Assembly (NCBI GenBank): GCA_002840125.1
Contig: PGZF01000001.1
Coordinates: forward strand, 1,307,237-1,371,236
Reading direction: 5' to 3'
DNA from: Gammaproteobacteria bacterium HGW-Gammaproteobacteria-15
GTDB taxonomy: Bacteria; Pseudomonadota; Gammaproteobacteria; Enterobacterales; Alteromonadaceae
Length of the DNA stretch: 64,000 nt
The notes under the pieces were generated by a model that worked only from the letters and a program-made list of their open reading frames with translations, was not told where the DNA came from and did no database searches. The translations under genes and the position numbers were made by a program. Below are positions 12,263 through 15,197 of the stretch, piece by piece. Numbering within the stretch: the stretch's first letter is position 1; the number at the start of each line of letters is the position of its first letter.

Positions 12263-13087
12263 ATGCCTGCGATTATTACCGGCACTGCGACAGCTCCTGT
12301 CGGCAACCTGCAGCATTTGGGGTTACAGGCATTTATGCCGCATCCTGCGCTGGCCGCCTGGGTGCAGTGTTATTGGGTTATGCGCCTTACAACCTTACCC
12401 GCTGCCGGTTACCAGCAAACACTGTATCCGGACGGTGGCAGCAGCCTGAATTTTTATTTTCAGCCCGGCCAGCCGCCACAATGTCATTTTAACGGCAGCC
12501 AGACACTAACTACCTTACAGTTAACCGAGGCTCTGGACGCCGTTGGTATACGCTTTTATCCCGGCGGCGCTTTTCAGCTACTTGGGCAGGATGCCCCACT
12601 GTTACAGGGCGATGCGGTAAATGCCGCTGATTTTGGTATTTCTACGTTGCCACCACTGCAACAGCAACTTGCTGCTACTGAGCATACCGCGGCAAGGTTG
12701 CAATATATTGATCAATGGTTGTTGCAACAAGTGCAGCAACGTAATGCCAAAAGCAGCCATATTCAACAGGTGTTACCGGTTTTATTGCTGCAACAGACAA
12801 CGCCTTCAGTTAGTGAGCTAAGCGCTGGGGTTAACCTGAGCCGGCGCCAGTTTGAGCGTAAATTCCTGCAACAGGTTGGCTTAACACCCGGCCAGTTAAA
12901 GCTGCTGCAACGGGTGCGCCATGCCAGACAACTGATCAACCTTAACCCGCAGCAGGCATTGACCGATATTGCGCTCTGTAGCGGCTTTTATGATCAGGCG
13001 CATTTTATTCATCAATTTCAGCGCATTACCGGCCAGACGCCCGGCCAGTACCGCCGCCGCAAGCAAAGCCAGTTTCGCATGTCGTAA
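12263..13087 (+). CDS. AraC-family transcriptional regulator
   Basis: A 274-residue regulator. The N-terminal half (about 20-160) resembles the sensor domain common in AraC proteins of the DUF6597 type (H-P-A-L-A-A-W-V-Q-C-Y-W, and P-D-G-G-S-S-L-N-F). The C-terminal half (about 165-268) is a double helix-turn-helix, with L-S-R-R-Q-F-E-R-K-F in the first and D-I-A-L-C-S-G-F-Y-D-Q-A-H-F in the second, ending in the family phrase G-Q-T-P-G-Q-Y-R-R-R. It starts 13 bases after the anti-sigma gene, with a GGAGCAACCT site, so it may be in the same transcript. A natural target is the AhpD-like gene that follows. Confidence 0.9.
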   Translation: MPAIITGTATAPVGNLQHLGLQAFMPHPALAAWVQCYWVMRLTTLPAAGYQQTLYPDGGSSLNFYFQPGQPPQCHFNGSQTLTTLQLTEALDAVGIRFYPGGAFQLLGQDAPLLQGDAVNAADFGISTLPPLQQQLAATEHTAARLQYIDQWLLQQVQQRNAKSSHIQQVLPVLLLQQTTPSVSELSAGVNLSRRQFERKFLQQVGLTPGQLKLLQRVRHARQLINLNPQQALTDIALCSGFYDQAHFIHQFQRITGQTPGQYRRRKQSQFRMS

Positions 13088-13151: not shown

Positions 13152-13607
13152 ATGACGCCACGCATAGATCGTAACGATGTTTATAAACTGCAACCCACCT
13201 TAGTAAAAGCACTGGGTAGCTTGGGCGAAGCGGCAGGACAGGTAATTGAAGCCTCACTGGTGCATCTGTTGCACCTGCGCATATCGCAGTTGAACGGTTG
13301 TGCCTTTTGCCTGCATATGCATGCTGCAGAAGCCCGCCACGACGGCGAGCAACAACAGCGGCTTGATGTACTGGCCGCCTGGCAGGAAACCCATTTTTTC
13401 TCCGCCCGCGAGCGCGCTGCATTGCGCTGGGCCGAAGCGCTGACCCTGCTGGCCAAACAGCAGGTATCTGACGATATCTACACCGAACTTACCGCACAGT
13501 TCAGCCAAGAGGAAATTGTCAATTTAAGTGCAGTGATAGTAACGATGAACGCCTGGAACCGCATAGCCGTAGGCTTTCAGTTTCAGCCGCAACAGAATAA
13601 AGATTAA
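13152..13607 (+). CDS. Carboxymuconolactone decarboxylase/AhpD-like protein
   Basis: A 151-residue helical protein of the CMD family with the alkylhydroperoxidase-type active site C-A-F-C-L-H-M-H (C50, C53, H57) and the typical E-R-A-A-L-R-W-A-E-A-L-T helix. These two cysteines support a thiol peroxidase or disulfide reductase role, probably in peroxide defence; ring-opening decarboxylase activity is unlikely given the CxxC. It follows the AraC gene after 64 bases with an AAAGGGAGCG site before ATG 13152. In many genomes such genes are regulated by an adjacent AraC/TetR protein, which fits here. Confidence 0.87.
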   Translation: MTPRIDRNDVYKLQPTLVKALGSLGEAAGQVIEASLVHLLHLRISQLNGCAFCLHMHAAEARHDGEQQQRLDVLAAWQETHFFSARERAALRWAEALTLLAKQQVSDDIYTELTAQFSQEEIVNLSAVIVTMNAWNRIAVGFQFQPQQNKD

Positions 13608-13632
13608 CGCGCTGTACAAGCTGTACTCTGAT

Positions 13633-13660
13633 AAAAAAACGGCCCACAAAGGCCGTTTTT
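13633..13660. terminator. Bidirectional terminator between convergent genes
   Basis: The stem AACGGCC/GGCCGTT with loop CACAAA is flanked by A-rich and T-rich arms, so it can stop transcription of the AhpD-like gene (+) and of the PEP-CTERM gene (-). Confidence 0.8.
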
Positions 13661-13680
13661 AACCACGCTTAAACGCTGTA

Positions 13681-14469
13681 TCAGTTGCTGTAGCGCATAC
13701 GCATGCGTAAACCCGCTAAGCCCGCAGCAAACAGGAAAATGCTGGCAGGTGCCGGAATATCATTTACCGGATCAACCTGATCACCAATAAAGCCGATCAG
13801 GTTTTTGGTTAATTCCTGTGAATTGGGTAAATCAAACTGATTCATCATAAAATTCACATCCAGGATCGTGGTTAACGCGCCGGCCATTGCATTACTCAGG
13901 CTGCCTACACCAAAAGCCACACCCGAGCCCATAGAACCGTCAGCACGTGACGTGATCCACTGGCCGGTACCGTTATCCATAAAACAGCCAGAGGCGGCAT
14001 AGGTTACTTCGCTTACTGCATTAGGGCCGGTAAACGGCGCATGTACCATCTGCGTGCCGTCGAAACAGCCATCGAAACCAAGAGCTCCGCCACCTAACAG
14101 CTCGATAAGCTCCAGTACCGAATTATTCCGGTCCATAAAACTTGAGTTTTCACCCATTAAAAACAAACCACCACCATTGCCGAGGTAGTTCATGTAGGTA
14201 TTTTGCGCGGCAGAATCCAGTGCGGCAGCATTAAAAAAACGCACATCCCACACCTGGCTATAGCCGGAAATATCGGCCAGCAGGCTATCAACAATAGTAA
14301 CGGTATTACCTACAGCTAAATGCAATGCCTGCAAGTTCGCCGTTAATGCACTGGTAGTACCCGCTTCTGTAGTTTGATCTGCACCATTTATAATAAGGAT
14401 CGGGCCAGCTGACACTGTGCCAGACAGGGCAAGGCCCGCCACACACAGTAAATGTTTTAATGTTTTCAT
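13681..14469 (-). CDS. PEP-CTERM-type sorted exported protein
   Basis: A 262-residue exported protein. Residues 1-21 form a signal peptide ending in V-S-A. The C-terminus is a tripartite sorting signal: P-A-P-A-S (239-243, a variant of the Pro-Glu-Pro motif), a hydrophobic segment I-F-L-F-A-A-G-L-A-G-L, and the basic cluster R-M-R-M-R (255-259). Such proteins are processed by exosortase and placed at the surface, often with exopolysaccharide. The body (I-L-I-I-N-G-A-D, G-G-G-L-F-L-M-G-E-N) resembles a ThuA/class I amidotransferase-like Rossmann fold without an evident catalytic Cys; that is a weak guess. GGAG precedes the ATG, and a sigma-54 site lies upstream. Confidence 0.8.
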   Translation of the reverse strand: MKTLKHLLCVAGLALSGTVSAGPILIINGADQTTEAGTTSALTANLQALHLAVGNTVTIVDSLLADISGYSQVWDVRFFNAAALDSAAQNTYMNYLGNGGGLFLMGENSSFMDRNNSVLELIELLGGGALGFDGCFDGTQMVHAPFTGPNAVSEVTYAASGCFMDNGTGQWITSRADGSMGSGVAFGVGSLSNAMAGALTTILDVNFMMNQFDLPNSQELTKNLIGFIGDQVDPVNDIPAPASIFLFAAGLAGLRMRMRYSN

Positions 14470-14512
14470 GCTTCACTCCGTGAATTAGTCTTGCCTGATA
14501 GGCAAAGGCACA

Positions 14513-14529
14513 GAGCAACATTCGAGCCA
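14513..14529 (-). promoter_or_regulatory. Sigma-54 (-24/-12) promoter of the PEP-CTERM gene
   Basis: Read on the minus strand, the site is TGGCTCG-AATG-TTGCT, against consensus TGGCACG-N4-TTGCA/T: only one mismatch in the -24 half, correct spacing, and the invariant GG and GC present. It lies about 45 bases before the ATG at 14469, leaving room for a start near 14503 and the GGAG ribosome site. PEP-CTERM genes are known in some lineages to depend on RpoN with the PrsK/PrsR pair, so the location is meaningful. Confidence 0.65.
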
Positions 14530-14618
14530 CTAAATATAATATTTCAAAAACATCAGCTTATATTCTAAATTGCTTAATAACGCAGAACCAACGTAAAAAA
14601 AGCCGACAAGCCAACCCC

Positions 14619-15182
14619 TTAAACAGCTGGCAATTTACTTAAACGGCGCCATAAATACAGGCCATACCAGGCGTTAAACCAAAAGCCGGTATACACAATG
14701 GCGGTAAGGTGTAACTCGCGCGAGAAATACAGCGGCACCGCCAGCGTATTAACAATCAGCCAAAACCACCAGGTTTCCAGTTTACGGTTCATCAGTAGAA
14801 ACTGGGCAATAATACTGAACATTAAAATGGCCGAGTCAACAAAGGGCGCGTAGGCATCAGTAAAGCGGTGCAATATCAAGCCATACAGCAACGTAACCAG
14901 CAAGGCCAGGGCAGCATAACCCAGCAACCGGATAGATGGTGCTGAGGTTACTGCTTTAACACCGCTGCTGCGGCCCCACTGATACCAGCCGATAAAGTTA
15001 GTGGCGATAAAAAACAGCATCAATACTACTTCAGCATACAGCTTTACCTGATAAAACAACACGGCAAACAAGGCACAGCCAATAACGCCCAGCCACCAGG
15101 TATGAATGCTGTTACGCGCAGCCAAAAACACCGCCAGCAAATAAAAGCCATTGGCGCCATATTCCAGATAAGTCGGGTTCAT
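14619..15182 (-). CDS. pnuC: Nicotinamide riboside transporter PnuC
   Basis: A 187-residue membrane protein with about seven helices and the PnuC signature aromatic motifs (N-F-I-G-W-Y-Q-W-G in the middle; W-F-W-L-I-V-N and F-N-A-W-Y-G-L-Y-L-W near the end). PnuC takes up nicotinamide riboside for NAD salvage, driven by later phosphorylation. I chose ATG 15182 because AGGAAA lies just before it; an in-frame TTG at 15197 has no ribosome site. It is the last gene of the racemase-DUF393-pnuC minus-strand run, 15 bases after the DUF393 gene. No riboswitch was seen upstream. Confidence 0.9.
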   Translation of the reverse strand: MNPTYLEYGANGFYLLAVFLAARNSIHTWWLGVIGCALFAVLFYQVKLYAEVVLMLFFIATNFIGWYQWGRSSGVKAVTSAPSIRLLGYAALALLVTLLYGLILHRFTDAYAPFVDSAILMFSIIAQFLLMNRKLETWWFWLIVNTLAVPLYFSRELHLTAIVYTGFWFNAWYGLYLWRRLSKLPAV

Positions 15183-15197
15183 CAGGGTTTCCTGCAA

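Follow-up and report, generated by a model that had tools for sequence, protein, structure and literature searches.

The promoters of proteobacterial PEP-CTERM genes were described by Haft et al. in 2006 (PMC1569441), who found a motif pair before 99 of 167 such genes. The pair consists of a 17-nt motif 1 ending in TTTACA and, after a spacer (mean 62.8 nt, S.D. 10.6, range 32-92 nt), a motif with GG at -24 and GC at -12. The genes form single-gene units, with an upstream non-coding region of more than 200 nt in over 65% of cases. PrsR was proposed as the activator and PrsK as the kinase of PrsR, and the box was tied to PrsK, PrsR and PrsT by phylogenetic profile. Neither helical steps in the spacer nor IHF are mentioned in section 7 of that paper, and term searches of it did not return them (PMC1569441).

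Three other lines of work bear on such promoters. The PEP-CTERM gene pepA of Aquincola tertiaricarbonis RN12 is reported to depend on RpoN1 and to have a mapped -24/-12 start, in an organism where plasmid-borne prsK or prsK-prsR did not rescue a floc mutant (PMC9850573). The Vibrio qrr enhancers, which work with LuxO, form natural sigma-54 loops that are sensitive to the DNA helical repeat (PMC4740811), and sigma-54 promoters are described as often assisted by IHF (PMC7057263). In the main text of two sigma-54 surveys (PMC3162934, PMC12316311), term searches returned none of the words 'PEP-CTERM', 'exosortase', 'PrsR' and 'helical'.

The window, by which we mean the whole 64,000-nt stretch of DNA analysed, belongs to a Rheinheimera-type genome of 4.68 Mb. 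On its minus strand, at 14514-14529, we read directly a sigma-54 -24/-12 element, TGGCTCGAATGTTGCT, whose last T is followed by 44 nt and then by the ATG (14469) of a 262-aa ORF (13681-14469, minus strand); a probable ribosome-binding site, GGAG, was picked out by eye at 14476-14479 (minus strand). The sigma-54 promoter consensus is TGGCACRNNNNTTGCW, from which the element departs by one mismatch, T for A, the 16-bp layout being correct. This confirms, on the minus strand at 14529-14514, the site that the first-pass annotation had given as TGGCTCG-AATG-TTGCT with one mismatch and a 16-base layout. By itself the motif is weak evidence and could have arisen by chance: TGGCNCRNNNNTTGCW has 17 matches in the genome, its reversed form has 6, and a further one of the 17 (12906-12921) falls inside a window ORF (12263-13087). 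The case therefore rests on the composite of box and promoter.

The box, TGTCGGCTTTTTTTACG (14592-14608, minus strand), had been overlooked in the earlier reading. It is a PrsR-type enhancer box that fits motif 1 of Haft et al. (PMC1569441), and it lies 62 nt upstream of the -24 element (79 nt start to start; the spacer, read directly, covers 14530-14591 on the minus strand). Its presence beside the sigma-54 match is the decisive evidence for the promoter call. The box starts 10 nt behind the stop codon of a same-strand ORF (14619-15197, PnuC-like by eye; gap 14609-14618), and the whole switch is contained in the 149 nt between that ORF and the ATG; downstream, the neighbouring ORF runs in the opposite direction.

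The kind of promoter is the one already described in 2006 (PMC1569441). Like that element, the locus has a 17-nt box with TTTAC near its 3' end, a 62-nt spacer, GG at -24 and GC at -12, a short leader and a PEP-CTERM-type gene downstream, in a genome that encodes XrtA, PrsK and PrsR. Unlike it, the window box ends in TTTACG and not in TTTACA, with G for A as its last base, and the tail of the protein has IPAP and scores under the HMM cut-offs. Aquincola pepA, too, is a PEP-CTERM gene preceded by a sigma-54 promoter (TGGCAC / CTGCTT) and, upstream, by a predicted enhancer, but its start and RpoN dependence were measured, whereas the window gene, a different gene in a different organism, is known from its sequence (PMC9850573). 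From the evidence set out below, we consider it very probable that the site is a sigma-54-dependent, PrsR-activated promoter that switches on the window gene and, with it, four or more further PEP-CTERM genes.

The 262-aa protein has a signal-peptide-like N-terminus (by eye), and its tail, IPAPASIFLFAAGLAGLRMRMRYSN, consists of IPAPAS, a hydrophobic stretch and RMRMRYSN (by eye and with our own regular expression). Residues 237-259, encoded at 13693-13761 on the minus strand, match PF07589 at 16.6 bits, below the cut-off of 20.7, and the score with TIGR02595 is 11.0 bits, below the cut-off of 16. The tail is best read as a variant PEP-CTERM tail, and the protein as an ortholog of PEP-CTERM proteins, because the tails of two orthologs pass the Pfam cut-off: that of a betaproteobacterial MAG (L039, 23.4 bits) and that of a Phycisphaeraceae MAG (L040, 23.6 bits), which are 62% and 48% identical to the window protein in the ortholog alignment. 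Two closer orthologs, L036 (18.8 bits) and L037 (14.9 bits), are under this cut-off. The genes with passing tails are at L039:3570-4349 and L040:1057-1869, and the Rheinheimera tails have drifted to IPAP or VPAP. Among the orthologs, the tail varies while the protein is conserved.

The nearest named orthologs, 97-98% identical, are from Rheinheimera pacifica, R. hassiensis and Rheinheimera sp. EpRS3. An orthologous protein is present in 3 of the 147 family genomes searched, its own genome included, and the window gene is therefore patchy. An AlphaFold model of the product, built from 9 sequences, was poor (mean pLDDT 44.0). The sole matches in a profile search of the PDB were sea-anemone cytolysins at E 0.18 or worse, which we took as chance.

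In front of the orthologous genes, the sigma-54 site is identical in the Rheinheimera loci L033-L036 and reads AGGCGCGATTTTTGCT in R. nanhaiensis (L037), TGGCGTAAACATTGCT in Alkalimonas (L038) and TGGCACGAGGCGTGCT in the betaproteobacterial MAG. The pair of box and sigma-54 element is kept in L033-L037, and in L038 a box starting with CGTC is found at 80 nt. The betaproteobacterial locus has a sigma-54-like site and no clear box (the best match has 5 mismatches and is on the opposite strand), while neither a box nor a convincing sigma-54 element was found before the Phycisphaeraceae ortholog.

Within the genome of the window, all four genes over the PF07589 cut-off have a TGTC-N7-TTTACA box 78-79 nt before TGGC-N8-TGCW (start to start), which is the recurrence before other PEP-CTERM genes that the first-pass annotation had proposed to look for. 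A weaker candidate of the same genome (L005, G000:C7:314331-317396; SEPAT tail, 17.7 bits, under the cut-off) is without the pair and may lie outside the regulon.

We expressed box and promoter as a composite pattern, TGTCN7TTTACN{49,79}GGCN8TGCW, which has 482 matches in 123 of the 147 family genomes, against 7 for a reversed control. The composite is thus beyond chance, about 70 times commoner than its control. Seven of the matches are in the genome of the window, five of them before PEP-CTERM-type genes; at the remaining two (L108 and L109) the downstream ORF has no PEP-CTERM tail. By our own regular expression, which has false negatives (L001 was missed), a PEP-CTERM-like tail is encoded downstream of 107 of 136 family sites and 45 of 90 class sites among those listed, versus 2 of 80 control ORFs, one of which is the window gene itself. 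Ten downstream proteins (9 of them tail-like, from 20 drawn) were compared with Pfam; six matched PF07589 at E 0.01 or better, one of these over the cut-off. With the box flipped, 20 matches were obtained in 20 of 147 genomes, versus 4 for the corresponding control, using a pattern that, with A required at one end, is a little stricter than that of the forward search. The box strongly prefers one orientation, and a few reversed boxes may be real.

The spacer of these promoters contains a further element. The consensus for IHF binding is WATCAANNNNTTR, and we found it at two places anchored to the promoter: reversed, starting 30-33 nt before the -24 T, and forward, 18-21 nt before it. The offsets were first set on the family data (30-32 reversed, 18-20 forward), and applied in that form to the class sites they gave 24 and 11 matches; the class offsets were one base larger, and the ranges were widened by one for the final test. 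With at most one mismatch, the consensus is present in 67 of 136 family sites and 46 of 90 class sites among those listed, the latter being the sites in extracted loci. Shuffled spacers gave means of 2.2 (family) and 1.2 (class), with maxima of 7 and 5. Shifting the test by -5, -4 or +4 to +10 nt left 0-2 family and 0-1 class sites, and a shift of +15 nt gave 10 of 135 and 3 of 90.

By the register derived from the family and class sites, the corresponding place in the window is 14548-14560 (minus strand), where TAAGCTGATGTTT is a weak match with two mismatches, above the limit of one used for the set. Elsewhere in the same genome, the sites of L001 and L003 have no mismatch, and those of L002 and L004 have three. 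The bend site is therefore a property of the promoter set; for the window promoter it is a candidate and not established. The promoter-proximal element might instead be bound by another architectural protein or by the alpha subunit of the polymerase. This is an unlikely alternative, though one that draws on the A+T-richness of the spacers, on the fact that IHF is named by sequence resemblance to a consensus, and on the poor matches (2-3 mismatches) of L002, L004 and the window promoter. It has to contend with a full 13-bp consensus that occurs in two orientations at fixed places, in numbers of listed sites (67 and 46) well apart from the shuffled maxima, with the presence of IhfA in the genome, and with the help that IHF often gives to looping at sigma-54 promoters (PMC7057263). 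IHF remains the putative occupant of the element in the promoter set.

The first-pass annotation had suggested RpoN control of the gene, as known through PrsK and PrsR in some lineages, which would place it in a surface or exopolysaccharide regulon, and had named exosortase, prsK and prsR as genes to look for. All three are in the genome, over their cut-offs: exosortase A (TIGR03109) at 295.7 bits (cut-off 208), PrsK (TIGR02916) at 583.1 bits (cut-off 300) and PrsR (TIGR02915) at 693.4 bits (cut-off 502.6), the last encoded next to the PrsK gene. RpoN has one match, of 514.2 bits (cut-off 277.35). An XrtA exopolysaccharide locus (C2:396000-414000) matches seven XrtA-associated models, each over its cut-off: the amidotransferase, the EpsB-type glycosyltransferase, the export protein, the chain-length protein, the tyrosine kinase, the deacetylase and the O-glycosylation ligase. 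Together with the box and the sister genes, these matches support the suggestion, which neither of the two genome checks refuted.

The activator is presumptively assigned by its family, because the PrsR model also matches 15 other loci of the genome, with scores of 268-404 bits. These loci, and the fact that no PrsR binding experiment was found in the literature examined, leave some room for another NtrC-type activator at the box; we judge this improbable, as PrsR alone passes the curated cut-off (693.4 bits, with the threshold at 502.6) and the phylogenetic profile of Haft et al. ties the box to PrsK, PrsR and PrsT (PMC1569441). PrsR remains the likely activator.

The distance between box and promoter, measured from the start of the box to the end of the promoter motif, takes discrete values. 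In the family, 149 sites were read, from among the matches listed (of 482 in all) and the extracted loci, and the 13 whose box has a last base other than A or G were set aside, which left 136 for the position tests. Among these 136, there are peaks at 83-84 and 94-96, with none at 87-92 or 99-102. A combined family series, of listed matches below 107 and listed longer-spacer matches of 107 or above, has means of 83.7, 94.95, 106.4, 116.3 and 130.0 (n = 36, 84, 30, 29 and 10 of 192), the heights of the peaks not being comparable; none of the listed distances is at 121-127, and three are off the peaks (80, 136 and 137).

The class set, drawn from 58 genomes outside the family, comprises 139 listed sites, 11 own-family matches having been left out. 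Of these, 18 are at 82-86, 0 at 87-91, 68 at 92-98, 2 at 99-102, 48 at 103-109 and three at 110. The best period for the listed sites is 11.4-11.55 bp, with a phase concentration of 0.72-0.80 versus null maxima of 0.31-0.36. Across family and class, the box-to-promoter distances come in discrete steps about 11 bp apart, which suggests that box and promoter must sit on the same face of the helix. The Vibrio qrr case differs in its activator and its regulon, and its helical sensitivity was seen with indels in the loop, whereas for the PEP-CTERM promoters it would follow from a class-wide histogram of spacings in one regulon (PMC4740811).

Shared ancestry of the promoters, in place of a helix-face constraint, would also give discrete spacings, and some sites are indeed orthologous or recent paralogs with similar spacers, a kinship that the spacing statistics ignore. 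That ancestry accounts for the pattern is nevertheless very improbable: the same steps recur outside the family, in the 139 sites listed from 58 genomes, no site of either set falls at 87-91, and the family series continues to steps near 116 and 130. The helix-face constraint is the reading we prefer. In the literature searched, outside which lay most subscription journals, we found no earlier report of the discrete spacing or of a promoter-anchored IHF-consensus site in about half of the sites, and no statement on IHF at PEP-CTERM promoters.

Least probable of all is that the sigma-54 match is fortuitous, with transcription of the gene starting at an ordinary promoter or reading through from ORF 14619-15197: that ORF is on the same strand with a gap of 149 nt, and the bare sigma-54 pattern occurs 17 times in the genome and 6 times reversed, but no sigma-70-type site was found in 13600-14700, L033-L038 have kept both box and promoter, and the composite far exceeds its control.

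In the mechanism that we propose for the PrsR-activated promoter, PrsK would sense a signal and phosphorylate PrsR, as expected from the family. Binding of PrsR to the box (14608-14592) would follow, with the 62-nt spacer bending back so that the PrsR ATPase meets the RNA polymerase-sigma-54 complex at 14529-14514; looping of the spacer may be aided by IHF at those promoters where an IHF-type site is present. Remodelling of the sigma-54 closed complex by the PrsR ATPase would open the promoter. The window gene would be turned on with at least four other PEP-CTERM genes, and surface or matrix proteins would be made together. Their products would be exported and, as expected, processed by exosortase A (XrtA) at the cell surface, beside the exopolysaccharide from its locus.

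Some composite sites precede genes of other kinds. The proteins behind three sites with short spacing (84-86), at L092:1352-1996 (minus strand), L099:196-840 (plus strand) and L168:236-1009 (plus strand), look Tat-exported by eye, with an RRNFLKK-type start; they lack a PEP-CTERM tail, match no family of Pfam or NCBIfam at E 0.001, and may belong to the regulon as non-PEP-CTERM members. A DUF5658 protein (PF18902; 48.7 and 58.5 bits, cut-off 25.2), possibly another non-PEP-CTERM target, is encoded by the ORF behind the site in two genomes of one family (f83; L206:1624-2112, plus strand; L207:989-1480, minus strand). Two similar ORFs of about 60 aa are found behind composite sites in two further loci, each from a different genome (L265:224-400 and L267:218-400, both on the plus strand), and that of L265 has no match in Pfam or NCBIfam.

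For Rheinheimera, the window site extends a known regulon of surface proteins by one gene. Beyond this gene, two class-wide features may be worth keeping, the discrete steps in spacing and the position of the bend site. It seems likely that the PEP-CTERM promoters of Gammaproteobacteria share one mechanical plan, in which a PrsR box with a strong preference for one orientation must sit on a fixed helix face (at about 84, 95, 106, 116 and 130 bp, with almost nothing between) and is combined with a promoter-anchored IHF bend site in two orientations. A rule of register and bend site should sharpen the prediction of PrsR regulons beyond the sigma-54 motif alone, and can bring in genes whose tails score under the HMM cut-offs. 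It also offers hundreds of natural promoters for testing sigma-54 enhancer communication over short loops. If the plan is true, the regulon would be a natural, class-wide spacing experiment on how short enhancer loops are built.
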